Of a stretch of DNA of 64,000 nt, positions 38,112 through 64,000 are shown piece after piece (position 1 is the first letter of the stretch; every line of letters begins with the position of its first letter). Made by a program: the position numbers and the translations under genes. Below the pieces are notes generated by a model. The model saw only the letters and a list, made by a program, of their open reading frames with translations, was not told where the DNA came from and did no database searches. Origin of the DNA: Cystobacter fuscus (lineage in GTDB: Bacteria; Myxococcota; Myxococcia; Myxococcales; Myxococcaceae); assembly GCF_002305875.1 (NCBI RefSeq), contig NZ_CP022098.1:4092001-4156000 (forward strand), written 5' to 3'.

Positions 38112-38747
38112 TCACGGGATGTACACGCTGCTCCAGACATTCGAAGTGATCACGGGAGGGTAGCCGCTCATGGGCGGGGTGTTGGCGTTGCCCGTCGCGA
38201 GCTTGTTGTTGACCTTCCATTGCCAGGATCCAGCGGTGAAGATCGGGTAGTTCAACGAGCTGCTGGGGCCGTGGCACTGGGTTCCCGCCGGGGTGCTGTT
38301 CTCCTCGCCGTCAGTCATCAGGTACAGCATCTTGCGCGCGGTGATCGTGCCCGACTTGTATGCGAGGAGTTCGTCCGCGGCATCACAAACCGCATAGGCG
38401 AGAGGATAGGCACCGGAGCCGACCTGAAGGCTGTTCAGGGTGAAGATCGTGGTGGCGGCGCCCGAAAAGCCTTGCCTCTTGACGTAGGACGAGCCCTCGA
38501 ATGTCCAGACGGCGAAGTACTGAGGGAGGGACAACGGGAGATTCACCAGGGATTTCGCTCGGAGGATCGCTTTGTCGAAGCGCGTGGTGCCATCGGAGCC
38601 AACGGTCGACATGGAGCCGCCGCTCGCGATGAGGATGAGGGTATGCTGCTCGGTGGGCGGGGATTGAGCCGCGGCCTCGTTGAATGAAATGAGCAGGCTG
38701 AACGCGAATGCCGCGAGCAGACGAAGCTCGAGAGTGATTGTCTTCAT
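38112..38747 (-). CDS. Truncated, degenerate von Willebrand A-like exported protein
   Basis: Third VWA paralogue of this locus, 211 aa. Perfect AGGAGGTGAC precedes the ATG at 38747; a signal peptide ends near residue 28 (NEAAAQS). It shares with its relatives at 41919 and 42965 the blocks FAVWTFEGSSYVK, AVCDAADELLAYKSG and LMTDGEENSTPAGTQCHGP. Two things are odd: the MIDAS motif DRSGSM reads ASGGSM, so the first metal-ligand Asp is lost, and the protein stops at SSVYIP where the others continue for over 100 residues into a dockerin. The stop abuts the helicase fragment, suggesting a recombination joint. The start overlaps the M36 stop by ATGA. Confidence 0.75.
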   Translation of the reverse strand: MKTITLELRLLAAFAFSLLISFNEAAAQSPPTEQHTLILIASGGSMSTVGSDGTTRFDKAILRAKSLVNLPLSLPQYFAVWTFEGSSYVKRQGFSGAATTIFTLNSLQVGSGAYPLAYAVCDAADELLAYKSGTITARKMLYLMTDGEENSTPAGTQCHGPSSSLNYPIFTAGSWQWKVNNKLATGNANTPPMSGYPPVITSNVWSSVYIP

Positions 38748-41700: not shown

Positions 41701-41803
41701 CGTGGGAGGGCGCGTCGGAGACGTCTCCTTGGGGAGAGGGATTGGCGCAGGCCGAGAGGGCTGCGAGCACGAGCATCGTGAGGGCTTCGCGGCGAAGTTG
41801 CAT
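38744..41803 (-). CDS. M36 (fungalysin/PepSY-FTP type) metalloprotease with PA, PKD-like and MYXO-CTERM domains
   Basis: Secreted zinc protease of 1019 aa. Lipoprotein-type signal with LSAC (Cys 19). N-terminal FTP/pro-region (about 40-250), zinc motif HEWGHYLH (about 604) with the downstream Glu in SEGWADFIALH, and a PA domain inserted ahead of it (about 505-560; CEPMSGLGGAVVMLERGTC, AEQAGASGVIMINN). A PKD-like domain (AKAGPDQSVQGGRRVRLDAS) and Asp/Ala/Gly/Thr-rich linker lead to a C-terminal GCGCGAGSS, helix, QRRRTSR MYXO-CTERM. Both a lipobox and a MYXO-CTERM are present, so final location is uncertain; extracellular or cell-surface is likely. It overlaps the truncated VWA gene. Confidence 0.9.
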   Translation of the reverse strand: MQLRREALTMLVLAALSACANPSPQGDVSDAPSHVHVPFQDPRRGVPTLLWNQSWEPSAQAPATPEAIASWYLEQLAPLYHLGEATLRTASIHQVHDTGRGGILVSFRQHLEGIEVLDSELDVLLTRDLRLVAVGGNLQDVASPQPHTFRLSHGEAVAHALNELSRVAGASADLRETEPMPGGFRSFTLAPGRAFASSRMTLVLPARAKQVFYPRDGQLVPAYYVETFLGTDASNNSNAEASVISAEDGTVLRRQGLTHADSFEYRVWAETDGSRTPLDGPQADYTPHPTGTPDGNRPAFIPPRWVSMESFNGKGDVWLPSGATESRGNNVDAYADLSAPDGFTPGSDVRAATVAGSRRFDHVYDTSLGPLARAEQTQAAVTQLFYTTNWLHDDFYVSGFNEASGNAQVSNFGRGGLEGDPLLAEAQGHEGSNNAFMSVPADGQSPRMQVFIWMGPEEHFVEVSGQRYPTGLAFFGSQFFQLTKPLVLVNDGIANPSTHDGCEPMSGLGGAVVMLERGTCSMALKSRNAEQAGASGVIMINNIPGVPPPRMTNDDTSIVVKLPVLSVTYEDGARLVKLTEQQAPLPATLWRGSIDRDGSLDNTLVAHEWGHYLHLRLMVPCTTAQCLAMSEGWADFIALHMLLREGDSLEGSYALAPYASVALGSSTYFGIRRAPYSVNKGINDLSLRHISEGEPLPTHPMVTRKPGNSEIHNAGEIFASLLFEGYIALLRDTRIPTPRYDFKTIRRRMADYIVAAMKLAPANATYTEQLQALLAVAAAQDLTDHALLAEAFARRGAGPKAISPSRDSVDLTGVVEDFSVNSPGSDHPVAKAGPDQSVQGGRRVRLDASGSQAPKGGTLRFQWHQVSGSPVVLEDSGKSAATFTAPVVSKDTVLAFRVTVGLGNRATVDTVEIRVLAGDSVPVDAGTDAGTGDAGTPADDAGTDAGVEPSPVDGGTQPDAGTGDPDPGNSGCGCGAGSSAPRSTFLFTLLALLGAYQAQRRRTSRNPTRAIPTSHQEVT

Positions 41804-46219: not shown

Positions 46220-46242
46220 GCACAGTCTCGAGGAAATGGCCG

Positions 46243-47388
46243 TCAGTGACGGCACCAGGTTTGCCCCTCGGGGTCCTTGCAACCATCCAACACCCAGCGC
46301 GCGATGATGCGCCGGAGCTCCAGGGGCAGCTCGACTCCGGCCATGGGCATGCCAGGTCGCGCGGCGACGAGCCCGTGCTCGGCCTCCAGCGCGCGCGTCT
46401 CCAACCGACGCCAGAATTCCTCGCCGGATTTGCGGCGCAGGTAGGCCTTCAGGCCCTCCGCATCCGCGGTGAAGGCGCTCGCGGCGCGTGGGCTGGTCGC
46501 GTGACAATGGACGCAGGTGGCGTCCCGGAAGAACGGTCCCCAGAGATAACCCAGCATCGCGGGCGGCAGCTCCCTGGGGACGGCCACGTCCTCCAACTTC
46601 AGTCGGGAGACTCGCACGTCCAGCTCCCGTTCCGCCTCGGTCCTCATCTCCCCGAACAGCCGGTACAGGAGCTTCGCCTCGTCGGTGGAGAGGGGCACCA
46701 CGGGCATGGTGCGCGCTTCTCGAGGCGAGTGGACCTTCCCGGCCGTGTAGGCTTGTAGCCACTCGGCGGTGTAGAGCCCCAGCGCCACACCACTCCGGCC
46801 CGCCACGGGCTTCGGGCCTCCATGGCAGATGAAGCAGCGGGTCGTCCACAGCACGTCGGCCTGGCGCCGCTCCTCCACGGTCAACTTCGCGGGTGCCTTC
46901 TCCCGGCCCGGCTGCCGCACTCCCAGGAGCTGGGCCACGGCCTTCAGCGCCCTGGGTTGGAGGGACGGGTAGGCCATCATCCGCGGCGCCCGGCTTCCCT
47001 CCTTGGGCGAGACGTCGCTCGGACGCTTCAGGAAGGCCGCGAGCCGCTCCCAGGACACCCGGGAAGTGGCCCCGCCGGGCTCCACGGACTCCGGGGCATT
47101 CATGTACGCCAGCGGAGAGGTGGCGAGCTGCGCCAGCTTCTCCTCACGCACGGGGACGGCGAAGTAGCGCCGGTCCGCCTGCCCCTTCTGGTGCCGCGCG
47201 GCCACGTCGTTCAGCTCCGCGTGGCAGCCATAGCATTGGCTGTCGGTCCAGTGCCCCAGGCCATTGGCGAAGCGAGACTTCGGCTCGTTGCGCCGGGCGG
47301 TATGGCACCCGATGCACTCGTCCACCTCCTGCTCGCCGGCGAAGGCTCCCATGCCCACGAGGAGGATGAGGACGAACGAGTACTTCAC
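46243..47388 (-). CDS. Exported multihaem cytochrome c (four CxxCH)
   Basis: Periplasmic or extracellular electron-transfer protein of 381 aa. Signal peptide ends near residue 18 (GAFAGEQ). Four haem c attachment motifs are visible: CIGCH (about 25), CYGCH (about 52), CFICH (about 180) and CVHCH (about 290). The first two are close together and the last two far apart, so this may be two fused domains, including a DUF/cytochrome region common in Myxococcota. No redox partner is encoded beside it. It starts by ATGA overlap with the small gene upstream. Confidence 0.88.
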   Translation of the reverse strand: MKYSFVLILLVGMGAFAGEQEVDECIGCHTARRNEPKSRFANGLGHWTDSQCYGCHAELNDVAARHQKGQADRRYFAVPVREEKLAQLATSPLAYMNAPESVEPGGATSRVSWERLAAFLKRPSDVSPKEGSRAPRMMAYPSLQPRALKAVAQLLGVRQPGREKAPAKLTVEERRQADVLWTTRCFICHGGPKPVAGRSGVALGLYTAEWLQAYTAGKVHSPREARTMPVVPLSTDEAKLLYRLFGEMRTEAERELDVRVSRLKLEDVAVPRELPPAMLGYLWGPFFRDATCVHCHATSPRAASAFTADAEGLKAYLRRKSGEEFWRRLETRALEAEHGLVAARPGMPMAGVELPLELRRIIARWVLDGCKDPEGQTWCRH

Positions 47389-50432: not shown

Positions 50433-51554
50433 TCAGAGCACCGAGGCCGGCGGCTCATACAGCTTGAAGAAGGAGATGGAGAGCGAGAGGGAAAGGGAGC
50501 GGACCTTGTGAAACCAGCCCGCGGGAAGGAAGAGCAGCTCGCCCGGCTCCAGCGTGCACTCGAGTCCCCGGGCCTGCTCGAACAACGGGTACCGCAGCGG
50601 GTCTGGGTGATCCGGATCCACCTTCGCTCCATCCAGCAGCTTGGAGTTGCTCCAGGTGTAGAGGAAGCATGACTGCTCGGGCGGAAAGAGGATCAACTGC
50701 TTGCTCCCGACCACCTGCGCCAGCGCGTTGTCCACGAGGTCCCGGTGGAGTGGCGTGATCGTCCCCGCTGGCCCCAGCCACATGTTGGGCCGGCCGCACG
50801 TCTCTGGGACGAAGAAGGGTGGGTACTGGATGGCGCTCAGCAATCCATCCGGTACGGCGTTGTTGCCCAGGTACGGAGGCGGCGCATCACCGACCAGGGG
50901 AGACTGGATCATGTCCAGATACTCGGCCAGGGAGAGCTGCGCGTAGGTGTGATGAGACGTGAATGCCGCCGCCACGTAGTCTCCGATCCTGGGGACGACC
51001 CGCAGCGCGCCGAACCGGGCCTTGAGCTGCTCGGGCGAGAGGGCCCTCACATCCCAGGTCCTCACCACGTCCAGGAGAATCACGGGACGGCAAGCCCGGG
51101 CATACTCGCGCAGGAAGACCTCTAGCGGAGGCATGTCACGCCGCTCGATCCGCTCGAGGGGCGCGCTTCTGGCCGAGATCTCCTCGATTCGTTGTCGGTC
51201 GGGGAACCAGTCCGCCGAGGCCCGAGAGGACAGCATCCTCGCCAGGCCGAGCCCCAGCCCCAGGTTGCCCTCGAGCTTCAGCCGACCGCTGGCATAGAGC
51301 TGCGTCACATTGCCGGACAGGACTTCCTGATAGTCCGTTGTCGCCAGGGTGATCCGAAGGTGGGGCCGGGCATGCCGACCTCGTTTGACCTCGAAGGCCC
51401 CCTCGCTCGTGATGAGGTGGAATCCGAAGGCGTGCTCGTCCATGAACTCGAACTGGATGATGCCTTCCAGATCTCGTGCATAGGAACGCAGCAGCCTGGC
51501 GTTCATCGAATGGATGATCTCGTCCGCGGTCCGATGCTCTCTGGATGATTTCAA
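50433..51554 (-). CDS. SCP2-like / JmjC-type (cupin_8) oxygenase fusion
   Basis: Protein of 373 aa. Residues about 10-110 resemble an SCP2 sterol-carrier or lipid-binding domain (FEFMDEHAFGFHLITSEGAF, LKLEGNLGLGLGLARML). The rest is a JmjC-like Fe(II)/2-oxoglutarate domain: RPVILLDVVRTWDVRALSP, the metal HxD in TPLHRDLVDN, the second His in LPAGWFHKVRSL, and WLGPAGTITP. Start TTG at 51554 with GAGGAG upstream; an ATG 16 codons later is a weaker alternative. It follows the NRPS by 67 bp, so it is probably a hydroxylase acting on the lipid or peptide part of the product. Confidence 0.8.
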   Translation of the reverse strand: MKSSREHRTADEIIHSMNARLLRSYARDLEGIIQFEFMDEHAFGFHLITSEGAFEVKRGRHARPHLRITLATTDYQEVLSGNVTQLYASGRLKLEGNLGLGLGLARMLSSRASADWFPDRQRIEEISARSAPLERIERRDMPPLEVFLREYARACRPVILLDVVRTWDVRALSPEQLKARFGALRVVPRIGDYVAAAFTSHHTYAQLSLAEYLDMIQSPLVGDAPPPYLGNNAVPDGLLSAIQYPPFFVPETCGRPNMWLGPAGTITPLHRDLVDNALAQVVGSKQLILFPPEQSCFLYTWSNSKLLDGAKVDPDHPDPLRYPLFEQARGLECTLEPGELLFLPAGWFHKVRSLSLSLSISFFKLYEPPASVL

Positions 51555-51621: not shown

Positions 51622-54600
51622 TCAGGGCGCGGCGCGACGCACGGTCTCGAGCGCGCTGACGCCCGCGAACGCCGCCTGGGCTCCGTGGGTGTTGGTGGTG
51701 GCCACGACGAGGGCGCGGGTTCTGGCGTCATACAAGAGGACCACCGAGTACCCGGGACGCGTCCCCAGATGGCCTTCCACGTCGAGCCCCTGGACGTGGA
51801 AGAGATGGAGGCCCAGGCCCTGTGCGTGCTCGATGCCGCCGGTCCGCTCCGGGTTGCCGCGCACGGCGTACGTGCGCATTGCCTCCAGGGTGGCCGGGTG
51901 CTTGAACAGCGAGCCGCTGAACAGGGCGCGTCCGAACACGGCGAGTTCCTCGGCCGTGGAGTTCATGCCGCCCGCGGCCCATCCGATGGAGGGGTGCCAC
52001 GCGTGGCGGAGGTCCTCCCATCCGTCCGTGCTCCGCATCCAGGCGCCAGCGAGTCCTTCCATCCGGGTGAGCGGGCCCGTCCGAGATAGCCCCAGGGGCT
52101 GGAGGATGCGTCGTGAGAGTTCCTCCTCCCACGTTCGTCCGGTGAGCGCCTCGATGAGGAGTCCGAGCACGATGCTATTGGTGTTCGAGTAGTGCCCGGG
52201 GGGAACGGGCGGCTCGTGCATGGCCAGCTCCACGAGTGCGCGGGGAGCCCACGGCGTGTCGAATCCGCCCCGCTCCGTCAGCCGGGGGAGATGGTCGGGC
52301 AGGCCGCTGGTGTGGGCGAGGAGCGCCCTGACGGTGATGGCCTCTCCTCTCTGGAGCCACGGCAGCCAGGTGTCCACCGTGCTGTCGAGTGACACCCTGT
52401 CCTCCTCGACGAGCTGCAGGATGAGGACGGCGGTGAACGACTTGGTCAGGCTGCCGATCCCGATGCGGGTCGTCGGGGTGTAGGGCGTGCCCGAGGGATC
52501 CGAGGTGCCTTCGGCCACCTGGATGCGGCGGCCGCCTTCGAACTCGACGAGCAGCGCCATGCCCATCATCCGTTGCTCCCGGAGGGTGTCGTGGACGAGT
52601 TCCTCGAGGCGGGCCGACAGATGCTGCTCCTGTTTCCGGTTCGCGATGAATCTGCGGAGCGACGACATGAAGTCCTGTGCCACCCGCTCGATGGTGGCCC
52701 GCTCGTGCAGGTGCTGGCTGTAGCTCCACGTCAGCTCCAACCGCCGCCCGAAGACGAGCCCGTTCACCTCCAGCAGGTGCGGGCGTGTCCCCCGCGTGCT
52801 TCGCATCGGGCCCGTCTCTTCCCGGGTCGGGCGGAAGATTGGCTCCTTCGCGAGGGGTGTGTCGAACTGTCCCAGATAGTTGAACACCACCTCGGCCCGG
52901 GGCAGCGCCGTCATCCGCCGCACCACCTCGTCATCGCCCGAGTAGCGCAGCAGCCCGTAACCCAGTCCCTTCATGGGCACCCGCCTCAGCCGCTCCTTCA
53001 CCGCGCGCAGCCCCTCCCCGGCGCCAGTTTGCCTTCCGGTCTCCAGCACCACCGGATACAGCGCCGTGAACCACCCGACCGTCCTCGACAGGTCCACCTC
53101 CTCGAAGAGCGCCTCGCGTCCGTGTCCCTCCAGCTCCACCCGCACACGCGTCTGTCCCGTCCACCGTCCCAGGGCCTCCGCCAGCGCGGCCAGGAGCACC
53201 TCGTCCAGCCGCACCCCGTACGCCCCGGGCACCTCCTGCAGCAGCGTCCGCGTCTCCTCCTCCTCCAACCCCACCATCACCCGGTCCTCGGACGCCACCG
53301 TGTTGGCGCCTCCGGCCTTGTCCACGGGCAGACCGGCCACGGGCTCTCGTCCCTGCTCCTCCCAGTACCCGAGCTGTGCTTGCACCTCTGGCGTCTTCGC
53401 GTACGCCTCCAGTCGCTCCGCCCACGCCTTGAAGGACGTCGTCTTCGCGCCCGGTGCCGCCTCCTCGCCCCGCTCGAGCTGCGCGTAGACCTTCTCCAGA
53501 TCCTCGAGCAGCGTCCGCCATGAGACTCCATCTACTCCCAGGTGGTGGATGACCAGCAGCAGCCTTCCCGTCCTCCCGTGCCCCCGGAGGAAGAGCACCG
53601 CCTTCAGCAGGTGGCCCTCGGCCAGCTCGAAGCCGCCCTGCGCTTCCTCCGCCACCTTCGCCATGGCCTCCTCCTGCGCGTCGGGCCCGAGCCCGGAGTG
53701 GTCCATGGTCCGCAGAGGGCTCTTTTCGGTGGGCGCGGCGTTCTCCTGTCTCCAGGCCGCCCTGTCCCTCGTGAAGCGCAATCGCAGCGCATCGTGGTGC
53801 TCCACCAGCACCCGCAGCGCCTTCTCCAGGAGTTCGGGCTTCAGCTCTTCGCGCACTTCCAGCATCACCGCCTGGTTGAAGTGATGGGCCTGGGGCTCCC
53901 AGCTTTCCAGGAACCACCTCTGGATGGGCGTCAGTGGTAGTTCGCCGCCCACCCGTCCCTGCTCTCCCACCTCGCGCGCCCGCGTCACCAGTGGGACCAA
54001 CTCGGCGATGGTGGGCTTCTGGAGGATCTGCTCTGGCTTCAGGCTCAGCCCCATGTCCTGGAGCCGGGCGAGCACCATGATGGCGGAGATGGAGTTGCCG
54101 CCCAGCGAGAAGAAGTTGTCGTGGATGCCCACATGCTCGATGGCGAGCACCTCCTTCCAGATGGTGGTGAGCGAGTGGTGGAGGTCCGTGAGGGAGTCGT
54201 CGGGGACGTGCGGCTCGGGCGCGGGGAGATGGGCACCGGCCTGGAGGGATGTCTGTGGTTGGAGGAGGGCGGCCTCGAGGGTGATGGGCTCGCACAGTTG
54301 CTCGACGTGACGCTCGGGATGGGCGACGGCGTCCTCGAGCAGCCGGAGGAAGTGCTCGGCCATGAGCGAGACCGTGTCCGCCGAGAAGAGGTCGGTGCTG
54401 TACTCCAGTTTCCCCGTGAAGCCCTCTCGCGTCTCGGTGAGATCCAGGAGCAGCTCGAACTTGGCTGTCTGGCTGGAGGACTCCAGGGGGCGCAGGCGGA
54501 GTTCCGAGAGCGCCAACTCGGGAAGTGGCGCGTTCTGCAGGGAGAACATGACCTGGAAGAGGGGAGAGCGGCCGGGGTCCCGAGAGGGATTGAGGGACTC

Positions 54601-57600
54601 GACGAGCTTGTCGAAGGGGACATCCTGGTGTGCGTAGGCGGCGAGAGTGGACTCACGCACGAGGGAGAGCAGGTGGAGGAAGGAGGAGGAGGGGGAGAAG
54701 CGGGAGCGCAGGACGAGGGTGTTGGCGAAGAAGCCGATGAGGCCTTCGAGGGAGGGGTGGTTGCGGTGGGCGATGGGGAAGCCGACGCACAGGTCGTACT
54801 GGCCGCAGTAGCGGGAGAGCAGGACCTGGAAGGCGGCGAGCAGGGCCATGAAGGGGGTGACGCCCTGGGTGTGGCAGAGGGAGAGGAGGGATTGGGAGAG
54901 AGGGGCGGGGAGGAGGACGGGGACGGAGGCGCCGCGGGAGGAGAGGAGGGAGGGACGGGGGAAGTCGGTGGGGAGGGAGAGGGAAGGGGGAGCGTCGGCG
55001 AGGTGGGAGCGCCACCAGGAGAGGAGGGAGAGGAGGGCCTCGCCCTGGAGGAAGGAGCGCTGCCAGGAGGCGAAGTCGGCGTACTGGAGGGGCAGCTCGG
55101 CTAGGGGAGGAGGAGCACCCTGGCGGAAGGCCTGGTAGAGGGCGGACAGCTCACGCAGGAGCACGCCCAGGGACCAGCCGTCGGAGACGATGTGGTGCAG
55201 GGTGAGCAGCAGGACGTGGACGTCGTGCTCCAGGTGCAGCAGGGCGGCCCTGAGCAGAGGACCCTCGGAGAGGAGGAAGGGGCGCAGGGCGTAGTCGGAG
55301 GAGAGGTGGCGGACTGTGGCTGGGCGCTCGGAAGGAGCGAGCGCGCTCAGGTCCAGGTGCTGGAGCTGGAAGGAGGAGTGGGGAGAGACGAGCTGCACGG
55401 GCCCGTGGGAGTCGAGGCGGAAGGTGGTGCGCAGGGATTCGTGGCGCTGCACCAGGTGCAGGAAGCTGAGCTCGAGGGCGGCCACGTCGAGGGGCCCCTC
55501 CATGCGCAGCGCCGCGGGGAGGTTGTAGCGGGCACTGCCGGGCTCCATCTGCTCCAGGAACCACAGCCTCTGCTGCGCGAATGACAACGGCAGTCCGCCG
55601 GAGGGTGGCCGTGGTATCGGACGTGGGCCCTGGCGCGCCCGCGGCGAGCCGAGGGTGGCCTCCACCCGGTGGGCGAGGGCCTCGAGCGTGGGTGCCTCGA
55701 AGAACGCTCGTACGGGCAGCTCGACCTGGAGGGTGTCGAGGATGCGGGAGACGGCCTGGGTGACCAGCAGCGAGTGGCCACCGAGTTCGAAGAAGTTGTC
55801 CTGGACGCCGACCGCGTCCACCTTCAGCAGCTCGCGCCATACCTGGGCGAGGGCCATCTCCAGTCCAGTCCTGGGAGGGATGAACTCCCGCCGGGCCAGG
55901 TGGTGGCTCTCCGGAGGCGGGAGCGCCTTGCGGTCGATCTTGCCATTGGGCGTGAGTGGCAGGGCCTCGAGCAGGACGAAGGCCGAGGGAACCATGTAGC
56001 CGGGCAGCGTCTGCTCGAGGCGGCGGCGCAGCGTGTTGGCGTCGAGGTGTGTTCCCGGTGCCGCGACGGCGTAGGCGACGAGGCGCTTGTCACCGGGAAC
56101 GTCCTCGCGGGCGAGCACCGCGACCTGGAGCACCTCGGGCTGGGACAGGAGGATGGACTCGATCTCCCCCAGCTCGATGCGGAAGCCGCGGACCTTCACC
56201 TGCTGGTCGATGCGTCCGAGGTACTCGAGGCTCCCATCCGGTAGGAAGCGGGCGAGATCGCCAGTCTTGTAGAGGCGTGCACCGGGCTGGCCGCTGAAAG
56301 GATCCGGGATGAAGCGCTCGGCGGTGAGCTCGGGGCGGTTGAAGTAGCCGCGGGCGAGGCCCGAGCCGGAGAGGTGGAGTTCGCCGGGAACACCGAGGGG
56401 AACGGGCTGGAGCCGTGAATCGAGCAGGTAGACCCGGGTGCCGGGGAGGGGGCGGCCGATGGTGGGCTCGGAGGAGCCATCCCGAGGGACGAGCGAGAAT
56501 GTGGAGTAGGTGGTGTCCTCGGTGGGCCCGTAGAGATTGAAGACGTGCTGGACGGAGGGAAGGGTGTAGAGGGCGCGAGCCAGGGCTCCCGGGAGGGGCT
56601 CGCCGGCGAGGTTGATGGTGCGCACGGAGGAGGGAATGCCGCGGGTGCGCGCCAGCTCCGCGATGGCGGATGGGACGGTGTTGACGAGCGTCACCTCGTG
56701 AGCGGCGGGGAGCGAGGGAAGCGCGAGGGCGTTGTCGGCGAGCAGCACGGTGCCGCCACGGCTCAGGGGGGCGAAGAGCTCGAAGACGGAGAGGTCGAAG
56801 CAGATGGAGGTGGCGGCGAGGACACCGGAGAGCTGCTCCGCCGTGAAACAGTCGAGCGCCCAGCGGATGAGGACGACGGCGCTGTGGTGCTCGATGGCGA
56901 CGCCCTTGGGCCTGCCGGTGGAGCCGGAGGTGTAGAGGATATAGGCGAGGTGGGACGGACCCGTGGAGGTGCTCGGGTTGTCGCTGGGCTCGCGGGAGAT
57001 GCGCTCCCCGTCGGAGTCGATGCAGACGATCCCGGCGCTGGAAGCGGGCAGGAGATGGCGAAGGGACTCCTGGGTGAGCAGGAGGGGCGCGCGAGCGTCC
57101 TCGAGGGCGTAGGTGAGGCGCTCGATGGGGTAGGACGGATCCAGCGGGAGCCAGGCGGCACCGGCCTTGAGGATGGCGAGCAGGCCCACCACCAGGTCGG
57201 CGGTGCGCGGGAGGCAGATGCCGATGGGGACGTCCGGCCCGGCCCCGCGGGCGCGCAGGTAGTGGGCGAGCTGATTGGCGCGGCGGTTGAGTTCCCCGTA
57301 GCCGAGCCGGGTGGTGCCAGCGACGAGCGCGGTGGCCTCGGGGCCGCGAGCCACCTGAGCCTCGAAGAGGTGGTGGAGGCAGTGGGAGGTGACGAGAGGC
57401 GGTGTGCCGCTCAGCTCCTCTAGCAGCAGGTGCCGCTCGTCCGAGGTCAGGAGTGGCACGTCCGCGAGGTGCTGCTCCGGGTGGGCGACGAGGCCCTCCA
57501 GCAGGATCAGGTAATGCGAGGCCATCCGGGAGGCAGTGGCGGGTGTGAAGAGGTCTGTATTGAATTGAAGCTGGCCCGAGAAGCCCGTGGGCTTCGCCTC

Positions 57601-58176
57601 GAGGGCGAGCGACAGCTCGAAGAGGCTGGTTTGTGTCTCCACTTCGAGCTGGTGCAGGAGCAGGTGGGCCCCGTCCAGGTCAGGCTGGTGTGCGTCCCGC
57701 AGGGAGAACATGACCTGGAAGAGGGGAGAGCGGCCGGGGTCCCGAGGGGGGTTGAGGGACTCGACGAGCTTGTCGAAGGGGACATCCTGGTGTGCGTAGG
57801 CGGCGAGAGTGGACTCACGCACGAGGGAGAGAAGGTGGAGGAAGGAGGAGGAGGGGGAGAAGCGGGAGCGCAGGACGAGGGTGTTGGCGAAGAAGCCGAT
57901 GAGGCCTTCGAGGGAGGGGTGGTTGCGGTGGGCGATGGGGAAGCCGACGCACAGGTCGTACTGGCCGCAGTAGCGGGAGAGCAGGACCTGGAAGGCGGCG
58001 AGCAGGGCCATGAAGGGGGTGACGCCCTGGGTGAGGCAGAGGGAGAGGAGGGATTGGGAGAGAGGGGCGGGGAGGAGGACGGGGACGGAGGCGCCGCGGG
58101 AGGAGAGGAGGGAGGGACGGGGAAGTCGGTGGGGAGGGAGAGGGAAGGGGGTGCGTCGGCGAGGTAGGAGCGCCAC
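51622..58176 (-). CDS. Lipopeptide NRPS, C-terminal part: (C)-A-T-C-T-E-beta-lactamase-like
   Basis: Continuation of the synthetase that begins at 60887; it is separated from it only by a missing base at 58119-58122. Order: rest of the first condensation domain; A domain (57400-55930; ILYTSGSTGRPKG, NLYGPTEDTTYST, NGKIDRKAL) whose pocket residues read D-L-F-N-N-A-L-T-Y-K, resembling alanine codes from memory; carrier T1 (FFELGGHSL); second C domain with HHIVSDG; carrier T2 (FFSLGGNSI) without an A domain; epimerase (53945-52650; HHLGVDGVSW, DLSRTVGWFTALYPV, FNYLGQFD); and a terminal serine beta-lactamase-fold domain (52615-51650) with SLTK, YSN and HLG motifs. No classical GxSxG thioesterase is present. 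Cytoplasmic megaenzyme. Confidence 0.9.
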   Translation of the reverse strand: MALLPRRRTPFPLPPHRLPRPSLLSSRGASVPVLLPAPLSQSLLSLCLTQGVTPFMALLAAFQVLLSRYCGQYDLCVGFPIAHRNHPSLEGLIGFFANTLVLRSRFSPSSSFLHLLSLVRESTLAAYAHQDVPFDKLVESLNPPRDPGRSPLFQVMFSLRDAHQPDLDGAHLLLHQLEVETQTSLFELSLALEAKPTGFSGQLQFNTDLFTPATASRMASHYLILLEGLVAHPEQHLADVPLLTSDERHLLLEELSGTPPLVTSHCLHHLFEAQVARGPEATALVAGTTRLGYGELNRRANQLAHYLRARGAGPDVPIGICLPRTADLVVGLLAILKAGAAWLPLDPSYPIERLTYALEDARAPLLLTQESLRHLLPASSAGIVCIDSDGERISREPSDNPSTSTGPSHLAYILYTSGSTGRPKGVAIEHHSAVVLIRWALDCFTAEQLSGVLAATSICFDLSVFELFAPLSRGGTVLLADNALALPSLPAAHEVTLVNTVPSAIAELARTRGIPSSVRTINLAGEPLPGALARALYTLPSVQHVFNLYGPTEDTTYSTFSLVPRDGSSEPTIGRPLPGTRVYLLDSRLQPVPLGVPGELHLSGSGLARGYFNRPELTAERFIPDPFSGQPGARLYKTGDLARFLPDGSLEYLGRIDQQVKVRGFRIELGEIESILLSQPEVLQVAVLAREDVPGDKRLVAYAVAAPGTHLDANTLRRRLEQTLPGYMVPSAFVLLEALPLTPNGKIDRKALPPPESHHLARREFIPPRTGLEMALAQVWRELLKVDAVGVQDNFFELGGHSLLVTQAVSRILDTLQVELPVRAFFEAPTLEALAHRVEATLGSPRARQGPRPIPRPPSGGLPLSFAQQRLWFLEQMEPGSARYNLPAALRMEGPLDVAALELSFLHLVQRHESLRTTFRLDSHGPVQLVSPHSSFQLQHLDLSALAPSERPATVRHLSSDYALRPFLLSEGPLLRAALLHLEHDVHVLLLTLHHIVSDGWSLGVLLRELSALYQAFRQGAPPPLAELPLQYADFASWQRSFLQGEALLSLLSWWRSHLADAPPSLSLPTDFPRPSLLSSRGASVPVLLPAPLSQSLLSLCHTQGVTPFMALLAAFQVLLSRYCGQYDLCVGFPIAHRNHPSLEGLIGFFANTLVLRSRFSPSSSFLHLLSLVRESTLAAYAHQDVPFDKLVESLNPSRDPGRSPLFQVMFSLQNAPLPELALSELRLRPLESSSQTAKFELLLDLTETREGFTGKLEYSTDLFSADTVSLMAEHFLRLLEDAVAHPERHVEQLCEPITLEAALLQPQTSLQAGAHLPAPEPHVPDDSLTDLHHSLTTIWKEVLAIEHVGIHDNFFSLGGNSISAIMVLARLQDMGLSLKPEQILQKPTIAELVPLVTRAREVGEQGRVGGELPLTPIQRWFLESWEPQAHHFNQAVMLEVREELKPELLEKALRVLVEHHDALRLRFTRDRAAWRQENAAPTEKSPLRTMDHSGLGPDAQEEAMAKVAEEAQGGFELAEGHLLKAVLFLRGHGRTGRLLLVIHHLGVDGVSWRTLLEDLEKVYAQLERGEEAAPGAKTTSFKAWAERLEAYAKTPEVQAQLGYWEEQGREPVAGLPVDKAGGANTVASEDRVMVGLEEEETRTLLQEVPGAYGVRLDEVLLAALAEALGRWTGQTRVRVELEGHGREALFEEVDLSRTVGWFTALYPVVLETGRQTGAGEGLRAVKERLRRVPMKGLGYGLLRYSGDDEVVRRMTALPRAEVVFNYLGQFDTPLAKEPIFRPTREETGPMRSTRGTRPHLLEVNGLVFGRRLELTWSYSQHLHERATIERVAQDFMSSLRRFIANRKQEQHLSARLEELVHDTLREQRMMGMALLVEFEGGRRIQVAEGTSDPSGTPYTPTTRIGIGSLTKSFTAVLILQLVEEDRVSLDSTVDTWLPWLQRGEAITVRALLAHTSGLPDHLPRLTERGGFDTPWAPRALVELAMHEPPVPPGHYSNTNSIVLGLLIEALTGRTWEEELSRRILQPLGLSRTGPLTRMEGLAGAWMRSTDGWEDLRHAWHPSIGWAAGGMNSTAEELAVFGRALFSGSLFKHPATLEAMRTYAVRGNPERTGGIEHAQGLGLHLFHVQGLDVEGHLGTRPGYSVVLLYDARTRALVVATTNTHGAQAAFAGVSALETVRRAAP
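54538..55593. repeat. 1.05-kb direct repeat, copy A (second C domain)
   Basis: Near-identical to 57700-58754; by eye about a dozen substitutions in 1055 positions. It codes for the main part of the second condensation domain. This copy keeps a run of five G (in ACGGGGGAAGTC) that is four in copy B. Recent duplication or gene conversion is implied. Confidence 0.9.
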
Positions 58177-60887
58177 CAGGAGAGGAGGGAGAGGAGGGCC
58201 TCGCCCTGGAGGAAGGAGCGCTGCCAGGAGGCGAAGTCGGCGTACTGGAGGGGCAGCTCGGCTAGGGGAGGAGGAGCACCCTGGCGGAAGGCCTGGTAGA
58301 GGGCGGACAGCTCACGCAGGAGCACGCCCAGGGACCAGCCGTCGGAGACGATGTGGTGCAGGGTGAGCAGCAGGACGTGGACGTCGTGCTCCAGGCGCAG
58401 CAGGGCGGCCCTGAGCAGAGGACCCTCGGAGAGGAGGAAGGGGCGCAGGGCGAAGTCGGAGGAGAGGCGGCGGACTGTGGCTGGGCGCTCGGAAGGAGCG
58501 AGCGCGCTCAGGTCCAGGTGCTGGAGCTGGAAGGAGGAGTGGGGAGAGACGAGCTGCACGGGCCCGTGGGAGTCGAGGCGGAAGGTGGTGCGCAGGGATT
58601 CGTGGCGCTGCACCAGGTGCAGGAAGCTGAGCTCGAGGGCGGCCACGTCTAGGGGCCCCTCCATGCGCAGCGCCGCGGGGAGGTTGTAGCGGGCACTGCC
58701 GGGCTCCATCTGCTCCAGGAACCACAGCCTCTGCTGCGCGAATGACAACGGCAGCGGACCGTTTCGGGGCAGACGCTGGAGCTGGGGCCCGGGCTGTCCG
58801 GCCGCCACGGTACGCTGGGCGAGGATCTGCCGTGCCAGCTCCGTGAGGCTGGGGCCTCTCAGCAGGAGCTCCATGGAGATGGGGACGCCCAGCTTCTTCT
58901 CGAACATATGGGCCAGCTCCACCGCGGCCAGCGAGTCCAGGCCGTAGCTGGTGATGGGCCGAGATGGATCCACCGAGGCCACGGGAACCCGGAACCGCTC
59001 GGCGACACACGCCACCAACCAGGCCTGGAGCTCCTCAACCGTTCCTTGCCCCACGGGCTCCACCGTGTCCCGGATGACCGGTGCCGGCTCGGGGGCGGGC
59101 GGGGCCTGCTCTTCGCGCCGGGCCGTCTCGCACCACTGCAGCACGATGCGCAGCTCTCCCTCGCTGAACGCGTCCCGGGTCGCCCTTCGCTGGATCTTCC
59201 CACTGGAGGTCTTCGGGATGCTGCCCGGCTCGATCAGCGCCAGGGCATGGAGCTGCACCTCATGCACCTCGGCCAGACGCTGGCGGATGGCCGCCGCCGC
59301 TGCCTCACCGGCCTCGAGCTGTTGACGCAGATCTCCGGCCCGGCGCACGTCGATCTCCTGGACGAGCACGAGCCGCTCTTCCCCCTCCACCTCGAGCGAG
59401 AACGCCGCCGTGCAGCCCGGCCGCAGCGTCGGGTGGCTCTGCTCCGCCGTCTGCTCCAGGTCCTGCGGGTAGTGGTTGCGCCCGCGGATGATGACGACGT
59501 CCTTCTGTCGGCCGGTGACGAAGAGCTCCCCGTCCTTCAGGAAGCCCAGGTCTCCCGTCCGGAGATAGACGTGCTCGCCCCCATCCGAGGGCCTCGCCTG
59601 GAAGATCCGCCGGGTCTCCTCGGGCTTGCGCCAGTAGCCCCGTGCGACGCTCGGGCCGCTGATCCAGATCTCCCCCACCCGGCCCGCGGGGCAGCGTGCC
59701 AGGGACTCCGGATCCACGATGAGGATCTCCTGCTCCCGCGGTGTTCGGCCACACCCGACCAGCAACCGTGAGTCCGGCTGTCCGGAGCGGGCTTCCTCCA
59801 CCTGGTTGCGCTCCAGGGCCGCCGCGCTCGACACGAACAGGATGGGAGGGTCGGACACCTCGCCGCCGGAGACCAGGAGGGTCGCCTCGGCCAGCCCGTA
59901 GCAGGGATAGAACGCCTCCCGGCGGAAGCCGCTGGGCGCGAAGGCGCGGGTGAACCGGTCGAGTGTTTCCGGCCGGATCGGCTCGGCCCCCGAGAAGGCC
60001 AACTCCCAGTGGCTCAAGTCCAGGAGCTGGCGTTGCTCATCGGTCACCTTGCGGACGCAGAGATCGAAGGCGAAGTTGGGGCCGCCGCCGACGGTGGCCC
60101 TGGCGCGGGAGAGGGCTTCCAGCCACCGGAAGGGATTCTTGAGGAAGCTCAGTGGCGACATGAGCGTCGTCCTCATGCCCGTGTAGAGGGTCGAGAGGAT
60201 GCCACCGATGAGCCCCATGTCGTGGTACGGCGGCAGCCAGAGGACGCTGGAGCTGTCGGGCCGTAGCCGGAAGGCATGGGAGATCAGCCCGAGGTTGTGC
60301 ATCAGGTTGCCGTGGGTGAGCATGACTCCCTTGGGCATTCCCGTGGAGCCGGAGGTGTACTGGAGGAAGGCGAGCGTTTCTGGCTCCACGTGGGGCCGGC
60401 GCCAGGTGTCCGCGGCGCTCGCGGGCAGCCCGTCGGTGGCCACCCAGCGCAGGGCCCCGAGGTCCGGCGCCTGCTCGAAGAGGCTCTCGCCCACCGACTG
60501 GATGAACGAGGTGGTGAGCACCACCGAGGCCTGTGCGTCCTGGATCACCGCTCGGAGCCGGGGCAGTGTGCGCTCCAGGCGCAGGGGATCCGGCGGATAG
60601 GCGGGCACCGCGATCAGGCCGGCATAGAGGCAGCCGAAGAACCCCGCGATGTACTCGAGCCCGGGGGGATACAGCAGGAGGACCCGCTCACCGGGAGCGG
60701 CGAGCACCTGGAGCGAAGCGGCGATCATCCGCGCGCGCCGGTCCAGCTCCCCGTAGGTCACGGTGCTCTCCTCGCCCTCCGTGTCCTCCAGGAAGGTGAA
60801 CAGGTGCTGGGATGGACTCCGGGACGCGTGCTCCTCGAGGAGCTCGACCAGAGTGGAGGACTGTTGCGTGGGGGAGGTAGGAGCCAT
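57507..60887 (-). CDS. Lipopeptide NRPS, N-terminal part: FAAL-ACP-C (frameshifted)
   Basis: Loading part of the synthetase. Residues about 10-600 form a fatty acyl-AMP ligase (LQYTSGSTGMPKGVMLTHGN, WLPPYHDMGLIGG, YPCYGLAEATLL, TGDLGFLKDGELFVTGRQKD, PKTSSGKIQRR), which activates a fatty acid and loads it on the next carrier. The carrier (about 613-692) has GLDSLAAVE with the phosphopantetheine Ser. A condensation domain follows (SFAQQRLWFLEQM, HHIVSDGWS), but after LSLPTDFP the frame turns into Pro/Ser-rich shadow to a stop at 57507. Restoring one G at 58119-58122 joins it to the frame at 58176. Start ATG at 60887. Confidence 0.9.
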   Translation of the reverse strand: MAPTSPTQQSSTLVELLEEHASRSPSQHLFTFLEDTEGEESTVTYGELDRRARMIAASLQVLAAPGERVLLLYPPGLEYIAGFFGCLYAGLIAVPAYPPDPLRLERTLPRLRAVIQDAQASVVLTTSFIQSVGESLFEQAPDLGALRWVATDGLPASAADTWRRPHVEPETLAFLQYTSGSTGMPKGVMLTHGNLMHNLGLISHAFRLRPDSSSVLWLPPYHDMGLIGGILSTLYTGMRTTLMSPLSFLKNPFRWLEALSRARATVGGGPNFAFDLCVRKVTDEQRQLLDLSHWELAFSGAEPIRPETLDRFTRAFAPSGFRREAFYPCYGLAEATLLVSGGEVSDPPILFVSSAAALERNQVEEARSGQPDSRLLVGCGRTPREQEILIVDPESLARCPAGRVGEIWISGPSVARGYWRKPEETRRIFQARPSDGGEHVYLRTGDLGFLKDGELFVTGRQKDVVIIRGRNHYPQDLEQTAEQSHPTLRPGCTAAFSLEVEGEERLVLVQEIDVRRAGDLRQQLEAGEAAAAAIRQRLAEVHEVQLHALALIEPGSIPKTSSGKIQRRATRDAFSEGELRIVLQWCETARREEQAPPAPEPAPVIRDTVEPVGQGTVEELQAWLVACVAERFRVPVASVDPSRPITSYGLDSLAAVELAHMFEKKLGVPISMELLLRGPSLTELARQILAQRTVAAGQPGPQLQRLPRNGPLPLSFAQQRLWFLEQMEPGSARYNLPAALRMEGPLDVAALELSFLHLVQRHESLRTTFRLDSHGPVQLVSPHSSFQLQHLDLSALAPSERPATVRRLSSDFALRPFLLSEGPLLRAALLRLEHDVHVLLLTLHHIVSDGWSLGVLLRELSALYQAFRQGAPPPLAELPLQYADFASWQRSFLQGEALLSLLSWWRSYLADAPPSLSLPTDFPVPPSSPPAAPPSPSSSPPLSPNPSSPSASPRASPPSWPCSPPSRSCSPATAASTTCASASPSPTATTPPSKASSASSPTPSSCAPASPPPPPSSTFSPSCVSPLSPPTHTRMSPSTSSSSPSTPLGTPAALPSSRSCSPCGTHTSLTWTGPTCSCTSSKWRHKPASSSCRSPSRRSPRASRASFNSIQTSSHPPLPPGWPRIT
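57700..58754. repeat. 1.05-kb direct repeat, copy B (first C domain), one base short
   Basis: Colinear with copy A from end to end, except that it is one base shorter: ACGGGGAAGTC here against ACGGGGGAAGTC in copy A. That position is exactly where the NRPS reading frame breaks. Confidence 0.92.
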
Positions 60888-61041: not shown

Positions 61042-63009
61042 TTATATGTATAGAGATTGCTCGTGGGGGCGCACCGCGGGACGGAAGTTCCGCGGTGATT
61101 CGAAGAACCTCTCGACGAGGTCGATCAACAGCTCGGCGTTCTCGTGGAGGCAGTAGTGGGTGGCACCCCGGAGTTGCACGGAGTGGGCAGCCGGGAGCCG
61201 CTCCGCCACCAGTCTGGACAGCTCGGGCGAGACGATCTGATCCAACTCCCCGCTGATGAGCAGGGCCGGGGCCGTCACCTTCCCGAGCAGCGAGGTGATG
61301 TCGCGGGACGCCTCCGCGAGCACCTGGAGGCTGTAGTTCCGGATGCTCCGGACATCGTTGAATGGCTCGGCGATGGCCTGCCGGAGTTCCCGGCTGGGGG
61401 TGGCCAGGACGTTCCCGGGTCCGCCCTGGGGTGTGCCCGGGGGCGGTGTCTGCTCATGAGCGAGCATGGACACCATGGAGGTCCTGACCAGAGAGGCCAT
61501 CTCCGGCCGCTGGCTCGCCAGTTGGCACATGCGCCGGAGCGTCTTCTGGAATGCTGTCTCCAGCCGCTCCAGTCCCGGGATGGGCGAGTAGGAGCCCGTG
61601 ACCAACACCATCGCGGAGGCGTCGGTTCCCCGGCTCAGCAACTCGAGCCCGAGCCTGGCTCCACTGCACCAGGCGATGAGTCGGCATTCGCGCACCCGTT
61701 CCTGCTCCAGGATGCGCTCGAGCACGGCCACCTGCTCCACCACGCCGCGAGGGCTCCAGTAGATGACGCGATGGCTCTTCAGGAAGTGCGCGAGGAACCG
61801 GCCCCAGACGGTGAGGCCCTGGCTCGCGGCATTGATGCAGACGAGCACCGGGCCGCTCCCCGCCGTCTGGTACTCGATGGGCCCGCCGTCCCCGGAGTCG
61901 AGCGTGCGCCGCTCCAGCGTCTCGAGTGCTCGCGCGGTCTCGTGGTGTGATTCCTGCCTCGACGCCACCCACTGCGAATGGAGCAACTCCCCCCCTTCTT
62001 TGTCCGCCGCCATCCAGGCGCCAGGAGCGGCCAGACGGGCGCGGGTGCTGTCGAAGTGTCTGGGCTGCTTCAGGTAGGGCTCGAAGGCCGCGGTGCGGGC
62101 ACGCAACAGGGTCTCGATCGGATCGAGCGCCACGCCTTCGCCTGCCCATTCGAGCTTCAACCCTGTCACCGATCCGAGGAACTGGCCGAGTTGATCCAGC
62201 GAGCACCCCTCCGGGCTCACGAGGTGGAAGAAGCCATCCACCAGGGCCGGGTCGCGCGAGAGCTGGCACATCCACTCCAGAGCCTGCTTCACCCCGAGGA
62301 CGTCCGGGCCGACCCCTGGAGCGGCCACGAGCCGGAGGGAGCGCTGCTGGAGGTAGCCGGGCGACTTGGCGTCGAGGAGTTCCTTGAAGCGCAAGAGCGC
62401 CGCGAGGAAACCCTGGAGCCCACCTGGGGCGTGGCGGGTGAGCGGGACACCGAGTGGAATCGAGGGACGGAAGATCCGACAGGGAATGCCTGCCTCCCGG
62501 CACCACGCCACCACCTCCCGCTCCGCGGCACGCTCGGCGTCCTCGTCGGGAGTGTTCGCCGGGTACCCCGCGTCGAAGGGCTCCTCCCGGATCGTCCCGG
62601 GCTTGCTTCCGGCCACGTGGAGGGTGCTGACATGGTTGAAGGCGCCCACCGGCTGCCCACGCAGCGGGACGAGGAACCGGTGCGGCGAGGCCGGTGGGAT
62701 GCCGTCACAGGCCAGGGTGAGGCCTTGCGTGGGTCCAAGGCTCCAGACCTCGTCGAACCGCTCCTGTCCGAGGGAGAGACCCTCGAGCGAGCGCAGGCCC
62801 TGGGAGAAGGTCCCGGGTAGGGGCATCCGGGCACCGAGCGCGGACCCCGCCCACAGGGAGCGCAGCCGCTGCTCGAGTGCGTCCTTCGTCGTGCCCGGTG
62901 CATCCGGGGCCCAGCAGACGACGGTGTCCCGGCTCGTGGCAAGCAACCACGCGGCCAGCAGCCCACCGAGGGGCTTGTCGACGTCCGCTACCAGAATCGT
63001 TCTCGGCAT
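61042..63009 (-). CDS. Thioester-reductase-like NAD-binding domain fused to an alpha/beta hydrolase
   Basis: Protein of 655 aa from the ATG at 63009. The N-terminal half has the thioester reductase/male-sterility layout: Rossmann start (TILVADVDKPLGGLLAAWLL), FNHVSTLHVAG, and IPCRIFRPSIPLGV. The Gly-rich loop is degenerate and the catalytic YxxxK position reads NTPDEDAER, so reduction is doubtful. The C-terminal half (about 385-650) is an alpha/beta hydrolase whose nucleophile elbow is AWCSGA, giving Cys as nucleophile, with Asp in ISGELDQIV and His in ATHYCLHEN. It precedes the NRPS by 154 bp. Likely roles are editing, transfer or binding of acyl intermediates; inference only. Confidence 0.72.
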   Translation of the reverse strand: MPRTILVADVDKPLGGLLAAWLLATSRDTVVCWAPDAPGTTKDALEQRLRSLWAGSALGARMPLPGTFSQGLRSLEGLSLGQERFDEVWSLGPTQGLTLACDGIPPASPHRFLVPLRGQPVGAFNHVSTLHVAGSKPGTIREEPFDAGYPANTPDEDAERAAEREVVAWCREAGIPCRIFRPSIPLGVPLTRHAPGGLQGFLAALLRFKELLDAKSPGYLQQRSLRLVAAPGVGPDVLGVKQALEWMCQLSRDPALVDGFFHLVSPEGCSLDQLGQFLGSVTGLKLEWAGEGVALDPIETLLRARTAAFEPYLKQPRHFDSTRARLAAPGAWMAADKEGGELLHSQWVASRQESHHETARALETLERRTLDSGDGGPIEYQTAGSGPVLVCINAASQGLTVWGRFLAHFLKSHRVIYWSPRGVVEQVAVLERILEQERVRECRLIAWCSGARLGLELLSRGTDASAMVLVTGSYSPIPGLERLETAFQKTLRRMCQLASQRPEMASLVRTSMVSMLAHEQTPPPGTPQGGPGNVLATPSRELRQAIAEPFNDVRSIRNYSLQVLAEASRDITSLLGKVTAPALLISGELDQIVSPELSRLVAERLPAAHSVQLRGATHYCLHENAELLIDLVERFFESPRNFRPAVRPHEQSLYI

Positions 63010-63231
63010 GAGTTGTCTCGGGGGCCGCCCGCGAGGGGAACCGCTCCGGGGGAATTGATGAATCTTTATGGGAAGGTCATGAAACCCTATCAATCCATTT
63101 CGTGGTTCGTCAATGCGAGGGTCGGACTCGGGTTTTCATGTATAGGGTAATCATGTATTGAAAAGCCACGGTCGCCAGCGTATCGGTAACGGGTCCCAAT
63201 CCAGCGGGGTTTTTTGTCATTGGCTGAGCTC
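63010..63231. promoter_or_regulatory. Divergent promoter region of the lipopeptide cluster
   Basis: AT-rich 222-bp region between the leftward hydrolase/NRPS operon and the rightward acyl-activating gene. It carries two direct TCATGTAT elements (63136-63143 and 63151-63158) flanked by TTTTCA and TGAAAA, a plausible regulator site. The cluster's two promoters must lie here. Confidence 0.55.
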
Positions 63232-64000
63232 ATGAAATTGGTGGAGTGTCTGGGTGATCATCCAGCGGCGCGGATCACCACGTGGGGCCGGATGGGGTTG
63301 GTGAGCCATTCCTTCGCTCAATTCCAGCAGGACGTGCGGGAGAAGGTGAGCGAGCTGCGCTGCCGCGGGCTCGACGAGTCCATGCGTGTCGGCGTGCTCG
63401 CGGCCAACACCTACGAGTGGCTCGTCCTGGATCTCGCGCTGGTGTCGCTCCGCTGCGAGATCGTCACCCTCACGGCCGCCCAGCTCGAGGGAGACCTCGA
63501 GCGGTTCGCGGCGGAGCAGGAACTCGCCGCGCTGTTCGTGCTGGAGAGCGGCCCGCCTGTCTCCCGCTTCGCTCACCTGGGGTGGGTCGTGGCCGCGGAT
63601 GCTCGCGAGCCAATCCTCCCGCGGGCCGGTGGTGCGTCGCGAGCCGGGCCGGAGTGGACTACTCCCTTCCGCGTCTTCTCCTCGGGGAGCACCGGGACGC
63701 CCCGGTGTATCTCCGTGCCCCGCTCCGGCCTCGAACAGGTGGTCGACGAGCTGCGGGACACGTATGCCTTCGACTCCTCCGACACCGTGCTGCTGTTCCT
63801 GCCGGTGTCCAACCTCCAGCAGCGCTTCCTCGTCTACTCGGCGCTCTGGTACGGCATCTCGTTCGTCCTCGTCGAGCCGCTACACCTGCTGCCCGCGCTG
63901 AAGCGGACGAGCCCCACCGTCCTCCTCGCGCCACCTCTGTTTTTCGAGACCATCGCCCGGAGGGTGACGCGATCCGCGCCGCTCCGGTGGTTGATGCGCA
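63232..64000 (+). CDS. AMP-binding acyl-CoA synthetase-like protein (3' end outside window)
   Basis: First 256 codons of an adenylate-forming enzyme; the frame is open to the window edge. Visible features: GVLAANTYEWLVLDLALVSL (substrate-side A1-A2 region), the ATP-binding P-loop FSSGSTGTPR (about residue 150), and LLFLPVSNLQQRFLVYSALW as in long-chain acyl-CoA synthetases. ATG at 63232. Divergent from the NRPS operon, so likely part of the same cluster: it could activate the fatty acid or supply the residue for the A-less second module. Fatty-acid-type rather than amino-acid-type similarity favours the former. Confidence 0.75.
   Translation, partial: MKLVECLGDHPAARITTWGRMGLVSHSFAQFQQDVREKVSELRCRGLDESMRVGVLAANTYEWLVLDLALVSLRCEIVTLTAAQLEGDLERFAAEQELAALFVLESGPPVSRFAHLGWVVAADAREPILPRAGGASRAGPEWTTPFRVFSSGSTGTPRCISVPRSGLEQVVDELRDTYAFDSSDTVLLFLPVSNLQQRFLVYSALWYGISFVLVEPLHLLPALKRTSPTVLLAPPLFFETIARRVTRSAPLRWLMR

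Follow-up and report, generated by a model that had tools for sequence, protein, structure and literature searches.

A nonribosomal peptide synthetase of Cystobacter fuscus with a terminal epimerisation domain and PBP-fold domain, a proposed in-cis thioesterase

A 64,000-nucleotide stretch of the Cystobacter fuscus genome (contig NZ_CP022098.1, positions 4,092,001 to 4,156,000; hereafter the window, in whose coordinates features are given) encodes on its minus strand a nonribosomal peptide synthetase (NRPS) that ends in an epimerisation (E) domain followed directly by a domain of the penicillin-binding protein (PBP)/beta-lactamase fold. This E-PBP end is a real, conserved, and uncommon terminal module that is under purifying selection. 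Based on the domain order, the motifs, the fold model, the conservation, the selection, and the failure to find a thioesterase (TE), we propose, with a probability of roughly 0.64, that this last domain acts as a thioesterase in cis and derives from the AmpH-type family of D-stereospecific PBPs and D-peptidases.

Domain order and conservation of the synthetase

The minus-strand open reading frame (ORF) 51622..58176 encodes 2184 amino acids comprising, in order, the remainder of a condensation (C) domain, an adenylation (A) domain, a peptidyl carrier protein (T), a second C domain, a second T domain, an E domain, and a Beta-lactamase domain (PF00144). The last of these (51625..52626) matched the Pfam model at residues 1858-2166 of 2184 with an E-value of 4.7e-48 and 164.5 bits (cut-off 27), and the NCBIfam model for the C-terminal part of E domains, TIGR01720, matched at residues 1720-1853 with 122 bits. 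The E domain (52717..53940) was assigned from the third PF00668 stretch together with TIGR01720 and carries the motifs HHLGVDG, EGHGRE, DLSRTVGWFT, and FNYLGQFD; GSLTK, YSN, and HLG follow in the same translation, with S1909-x-x-K1912, Y1996-x-N1998, and H2136-x-G as the catalytic motif residues of the terminal domain. A preliminary description, made from the sequence alone, had placed a serine beta-lactamase/PBP-like domain of ~320 amino acids directly after the E domain at the end of the synthetase. PF00144, TIGR01720, and all of the motifs that it quoted bear out this order and location, while the size is closer to ~334 amino acids with the boundary that we set; the boundary it gave at 53945 falls at the start of the E domain (LPLTPIQRW, about 53940). 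Its observation that a classical thioesterase is missing also held, as the matches listed at E <= 0.001 for the two NRPS ORFs include no thioesterase family, and no family of the classical type I NRPS thioesterases (a C-terminal alpha/beta-hydrolase domain) was listed in the NRPS ORFs of the window or of the relatives described below. No further NRPS domains were found among the 13 other scanned ORFs of the window.

The synthetase starts at position 60887, in the preceding minus-strand ORF (57507..60887), which encodes a fatty acyl-AMP ligase (FAAL), an acyl carrier protein (ACP), and the first half of the first C domain (C1); the remainder of C1 opens the second ORF. The FAAL starter domain (59154..60860) matched the fatty-acid--AMP ligase model PRK05850 over residues 10-578 with 463 bits, short of the 775 set as the cut-off for that model, and a FadD32-type FAAL model with 441 bits. 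It is followed by the ACP (58827..59021; PF00550 residues 623-687 and the YGLDSL motif) and the split C1 (57500..58754, with an approximate 3' limit; PF00668 residues 712-924, profile positions 5-217). Next come A1 (55939..57366; PF00501/PF13193), T1 (55663..55851; PF00550 residues 776-838 and the GGHSL motif), C2 (54295..55593; PF00668 residues 862-1294), and T2 (54007..54204, limits approximate; the second PF00550 stretch and the position of the GGNSI motif), all on the minus strand. The whole line reads FAAL-ACP-C-A-T-C-T-E-PBP, with a final C-T-E module that has no A domain, and is broken in the window by one frameshift.

A PBP domain within a long NRPS ORF was identified in 5 of the 96 family genomes searched (E <= 1e-28), representing three genera: the genome of the window (G000), G001, G129, G039, and G046. 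All five have the E-PBP end, in one ORF with the E domain. In G039 and G046, assemblies of one and two contigs, FAAL-ACP-C-A-T-C-T-E-PBP is encoded as a single ORF of 3176 and 3142 amino acids, respectively, from stop to stop, and G129 has the same architecture interrupted by a 100-N assembly gap. No additional E-PBP case was present among the matches listed for 195 genomes of the phylum (E <= 1e-25, at most the ten best candidates per genome). Likewise, no E-PBP fusion was present among the matches listed for the phyla of G198 (296 genomes, E <= 1e-20) and G195 (297 genomes, E <= 1e-28), with at most the five best candidates per genome in both, so that weaker cases may escape. A scan of genome contigs gave five loci with relatives from peptidase family S12, which are 28-36% identical and encoded in ORFs of 525-814 amino acids. 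The ratio of nonsynonymous to synonymous substitution rates (dN/dS, Nei-Gojobori) was 0.28, 0.24, 0.23, and 0.28 for the PBP domain in four genome pairs that are not independent of one another, and 0.24, 0.13, 0.17, and 0.19 for the E domain in the same pairs. Values of 0.23-0.28 indicate that the PBP domain is maintained, and together with the recurrence of the arrangement in the five genomes they exclude a chance juxtaposition.

The frameshift lies in a run of C near position 58120 (58119-58122) and may be a sequencing error or a recent mutation, an error being as likely as a real break. If the break is real, the cluster could be decaying in this genome and the E-PBP half could be a remnant, as the two out-of-frame ORFs in a single-contig genome would suggest. 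However, the break falls in a C run that reads in frame in C2, the twin of C1, the G000-G001 comparison gave dN/dS values of 0.24 for E and 0.28 for PBP, and G039 and G046 carry the synthetase as single ORFs. Decay is improbable on this evidence, and even if real it would leave the role of the domain in the relatives unchanged.

The two C domains are themselves closely similar. Self-comparison of the window showed a 1064-base stretch of C1 and C2 that is 98.8% identical, and in each of four genomes (the window and loci L042, L043, and L084) the two domains match over 910-1085 bases with a DNA identity of 98.8-99.6%, despite the synthetases of the three genera differing in 28-34% of residues. 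This within-genome identity looks like gene conversion or concerted evolution. In G001 the line reads FAAL-ACP-C-T-E-PBP, with seven single N positions in the sole C domain of that type, an arrangement that seems to be an assembly collapse of two near-identical C domains.

Affinities of the terminal domain

When solved structures were searched with the sequence of the terminal domain, the best relatives were the alkaline D-peptidase 4y7p from Bacillus, the R61 DD-peptidase, the D-stereospecific S12 peptidase 3wwx, dHy1, and D-amino acid amidase. SurE, ClbP, EstB, and AmpC all scored lower than this D-peptidase group (6.3e-21 for SurE vs 2.4e-42 for 4y7p). An AlphaFold model of the domain (mean predicted local distance difference test score 79, predicted template modelling score 0.81) was then compared with known folds. 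Among the best 50 rows, the nearest is D-amino acid amidase (Z 40.4, root-mean-square deviation 2.0, 327 residues aligned), followed by 4y7p and R61 in a tie (Z 38.2 and 37.8) and then, among others, by a Pyrococcus PBP homologue (Z 36.9), human LACTB (36.6), ClbP (34.7), EstB (32.9), and AmpC (31.7). SurE stands at rank 35 of the Foldseek list and is outside the best 50 rows of the Z-score comparison, which excludes nothing. Judged by sequence score and model fold, the terminal domain is predicted to be closest to D-stereospecific AmpH-type enzymes and not to AmpC or EstB. The preliminary description had raised clustering with EstB or AmpC as the alternative to a release domain; score and fold point away from both enzymes, neither of which is in the tree below. 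Its likening of the domain to SurE and Ulm16 is not sustained in detail. A lipocalin-like C-terminal part is not present, with only 18 residues following the PF00144 match (2166 of 2184), and the sequence is nearer to R61 and the D-peptidases, and membership in the SurE type was rejected.

The motifs of the AmpH-type class C PBP/D-peptidase group are SXXK, YXN, and HXG (PMC4570186), and in our alignment the Ser, Lys, Tyr, Asn, His, and Gly of these motifs are kept in all five fused domains. Arg285 of R61, which recognises the terminal free carboxylate of the substrate and is responsible for carboxypeptidase activity (PMC4570186, PMC10241514), is replaced by His in all five, which suits a substrate without a free C-terminal carboxylate. 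The terminal domain is, from its residues, predicted not to be a DD-carboxypeptidase. The position of R61 Thr299 is Leu in all five, and that of Thr301 is Thr, Glu, or Val. At Trp233, which shapes the D-Ala P1 site of R61 (PMC4570186, PMC10241514), the five fused domains have Ile, Ile, Cys, Phe, and Cys. A conserved Trp233 pocket for D-Ala had been entertained on the basis of a gapped profile alignment that seemed to keep the Trp, and was rejected on the multiple alignment, in which Trp233 of R61 is paired with Met245 of 4y7p, as published.

A maximum-likelihood tree was calculated from 51 rows cut at 420 residues, with L056 dropped as the same gene as L045 and L007, one of 46 loci, providing no usable segment; AmpC, EstB, ClbP, Ulm16, and BifB were not included. 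The five fused domains group together in a single clade (100/100), whose neighbour is a 771-amino acid S12 protein from the same order that is not linked to an NRPS (L044; 96/91). This clade is located within a 30-row group (98/98) that holds R61 and the D-peptidases, and also SurE, on a long unresolved branch.

A second set of NRPSs with C-terminal PBP-fold domains was obtained by searching plasmids with tblastn, from which four Streptomyces NRPSs were inspected and a fifth match, NBC_00440, was left out. The proteins are WP_331750235.1, WP_331741237.1, WP_327258035.1, and WP_266914543.1, and the loci are L091:4483-16521, L095:2836-13593, L096:2383-13068, and L097:1-12927. NBC_01707 has an E-PBP end in a protein of about 4012 amino acids, NBC_00963 has a domain that is E-like by eye followed by PBP, and NBC_01244 and NBC_00335 have T-PBP ends. 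The NRPS of L096 was observed to be followed by a separate serine hydrolase gene. The Streptomyces set resembles the five fused domains in having the PBP fold in cis at NRPS C-termini, in two of four cases after an E or E-like domain, but forms its own clade (100/100) and has an altered YxN motif in all four members, which is intact in the five fused domains described here. A single clade uniting the two sets was rejected by the approximately unbiased test (p-AU 0.012, for the rows examined and with long branches present). With the Streptomyces set in a separate clade, in-cis recruitment of the PBP fold seems, from these sequences, to have occurred at least twice among the rows examined. BifB, the sequence of which lies outside this comparison, may be a third case. 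When a Streptomyces domain was used as the query against the 195 genomes of the phylum, no open frame longer than 1393 amino acids was found among the matches listed (E <= 1e-25, at most the ten best candidates per genome).

Predicted product, release, and neighbouring genes

By motif spacing, the A1 pocket reads D-L-F-N-N-A-L-T-Y in all four genomes that have A1, with a Lys from the A10 motif. Going by A-domain code tables, we take DLFNNALTYK to be an alanine code, that of McyA module 2; no paper with this string was found in the open-access literature. After the two-domain LgrA entries, the best match of A1 in the Protein Data Bank was McyA (8jbr, 599 bits). With no A domain in the last module, A1 would load both T1 and T2, or another enzyme would act in trans, and the simplest product predicted from the sequence would be N-acyl-Ala-D-Ala. 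In the mechanism that we propose, the FAAL would load a fatty acid onto the ACP, C1 would join it to an amino acid, predicted to be alanine, on T1, C2 would join the acyl-amino acid to a second residue on T2, and E would convert that residue to the D form. Ser1909 of the PBP-fold domain would take the acyl-aminoacyl-D-aminoacyl chain from T2 to give an acyl-enzyme with the D-residue at P1, a step that may be likened to a DD-peptidase taking peptidyl-D-Ala, and the acyl chain would be handed to water or an outside nucleophile. Within this scheme, we infer the thioesterase activity, the D-selectivity, the alanine, the loading of T2 by A1 across modules or in trans, and the nucleophile. In-cis PBP-type release after an epimerase, as suggested in the preliminary description, is partly upheld: it is consistent with the terminal place, the conservation, the selection, and the D-stereospecificity of the nearest structures (top 8 of the best 50 rows). 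The cyclisation that it offered as an option does not fit in the head-to-tail form, since the chain is predicted to be N-acylated from its FAAL start, and head-to-tail lactam formation is unlikely.

The PBP domain could instead be a peptidase, an amidase, a domain that trims in the manner of ClbP, or a module for self-protection that binds beta-lactams, riding in each case on the NRPS. D-amino acid amidase is the nearest fold, ClbP is a structural relative at Z 34.7, and the logic of an FAAL and an N-acyl D-residue resembles prodrug systems, ClbP being known to act on N-acyl-D-Asn prodrugs. ClbP, however, has a C-terminal membrane part for which the 18 residues after the Pfam match leave no room, and the domain ends a long NRPS polypeptide in which no release domain was otherwise found. 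A riding module of this kind is very unlikely.

A different candidate for the release step is encoded next to the synthetase. The upstream gene (61042..63093, minus strand; Pfam/NCBIfam) encodes an N-terminal part that is weakly similar to short-chain dehydrogenases/reductases (SDR) and an alpha/beta-hydrolase with a Cys in its nucleophile elbow (WCSG). The SDR-like matches are below cut-offs, and the [ST]GxxGxxG motif was not present in any of the five orthologues. Four other genomes have only paralogues that are 30-41% identical (E <= 1e-40). The Cys-type hydrolase, working on T2 in trans, might be what actually releases or transfers the chain, with the PBP domain editing stalled chains or acting at a later step. 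C476, D618, and H646 of the hydrolase are invariant in all six aligned proteins (five orthologues and one paralogue), and a 32% identical paralogue in G106 (L093:10548-12587) is located beside a C-A-T NRPS gene without a listed TE, the adjacent ORF being outside the scan. Yet the hydrolase is a separate protein, whereas the PBP domain is in cis at the usual place of a TE with a full motif set, and a type II (editing) or tailoring role would fit the hydrolase equally well. Release by the hydrolase is on balance unlikely.

Several observations weigh against the PBP-fold domain being an in-cis thioesterase. The copy in the window is split by the frameshift, and the last module is without an A domain. 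Arg285 is absent from every row of the alignment but R61 (51 rows, one gapped there), so that its loss is not proof of a thioesterase, and given the residues found at the Trp233 position the alignment lends no support to a D-Ala pocket. Orthologues of the neighbouring hydrolase (E < 1e-200) are found in exactly the five E-PBP genomes of the 96. Finally, the E-PBP gene of NBC_01707 is followed by three more NRPS genes, indicating that domains of this type are not necessarily the final step in an assembly line.

Two other genes flank the synthetase. The downstream gene (50433..51554, minus strand) encodes an SCP2 lipid-binding domain and a JmjC/cupin-8 hydroxylase-like domain (HRD and PAGWFH motifs), as assigned from Pfam, solved relatives, and motifs. 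It is located beside the NRPS in four of the five loci, in inverted orientation in G039 and G046, and was not seen in G129 within 4.8 kb downstream. On the plus strand, a divergent gene that is partly in the window (63190..64000) encodes an atypical AMP-binding enzyme of about 548 amino acids (PF00501), which is found in all four other loci at 67.7-92.9% identity. The GK.[DQR] motif was not found in the four copies searched. The role of this enzyme may be to load T2 or to activate a different acyl group, and its gene (63190-64000 and beyond; L041:1737-3380) adjoins an Amidohydro_2 gene. The AMP-binding and SDR-hydrolase genes on the flanks were also considered as parts of a beta-lactone pathway (OleC/OleD/OleB), which was rejected because the AMP-binding enzyme reached 47.7 bits with NF006754, which we take to be the OleC model and which has a cut-off of 478. 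Two genes elsewhere in the window (43973-46849 and 38744-41803) encode a protein with 14 matches to RCC1 repeats and an M36 peptidase of the fungalysin type that carries PA and PKD domains.

Relation to known release domains

According to a review of 2024, PBP-type TEs are stand-alone, lipocalin-bearing, head-to-tail cyclases (PMC11735501). The enzymes SurE, PenA, Ulm16, WolJ, and FlkO treated there share the serine PBP fold with the domain described here, and a D-residue is expected at the acyl-enzyme position in both; SurE has SVTK, YSN, and HDG at the three motifs in our alignment. They differ in acting in trans, in having a lipocalin-like C-terminal domain, and in forming head-to-tail macrolactams, whereas the present domain is in cis and its chain is predicted to be N-acylated. 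R61, the Bacillus alkaline D-peptidase, and the Ochrobactrum D-amino acid amidase, which are D-stereospecific, are the closest relatives by sequence and fold and share all three motifs, but are free enzymes, and Arg285 of R61 is His here.

The nearest functional precedent is BifB, the biffamycin A NRPS of Streptomyces albidoflavus S4, in which an embedded SurE domain was reported in May 2026, the deletion of which abolishes biffamycin (PMC13285481). Both have a PBP-fold release domain in cis at the NRPS C-terminus. According to that report, the SurE domain of BifB follows the fourth peptidyl carrier protein, that of a Gly module, and is proposed to cyclise a tetrapeptide, whereas the domain described here directly follows E in a line with an FAAL start; the BifB domain is reported to be SurE-like, and the present one is without a lipocalin part and nearer to R61 and the D-peptidases, the BifB sequence itself not having been compared. 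The preliminary description had called the terminal module uncommon or undescribed. It is uncommon, with 5 of 96 family genomes, but in view of BifB (PMC13285481) and the four Streptomyces plasmid NRPSs the word undescribed holds only in a narrower sense, and the search for other E-beta-lactamase NRPS ends that the description called for turned up four more family genomes as well as the Streptomyces plasmid NRPSs. In-cis PBP thioesterases are no longer new since BifB; the E-PBP form, its subfamily, and the lipid start did not come up in searches of the open-access PubMed Central literature. Those searches, which did not extend to preprints, yielded no paper on an E-PBP end or on an NRPS that begins with an FAAL and has such a release domain.

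A more far-reaching proposal, which is tentative and on the whole doubtful, is that the product is N-acyl-Ala-D-Ala, a mimic of the acyl end of the peptidoglycan stem, made with one A domain for two carriers and passed by a built-in PBP-type thioesterase/transpeptidase to water or a second amine, and that E-PBP is a distinct class of terminal module that has arisen at least twice. If the terminal domain is an in-cis thioesterase, the DD-peptidase fold would have become an integral release domain of NRPSs on more than one occasion, and placement of E directly before release would fix the configuration of the substrate and the release chemistry in one polypeptide. Chemoenzymatic work on D-terminated lipopeptides would also benefit from a minimal, lipocalin-free, and possibly D-selective domain of this kind, and with natural homologues from five genomes of three genera the idea can be tested directly.

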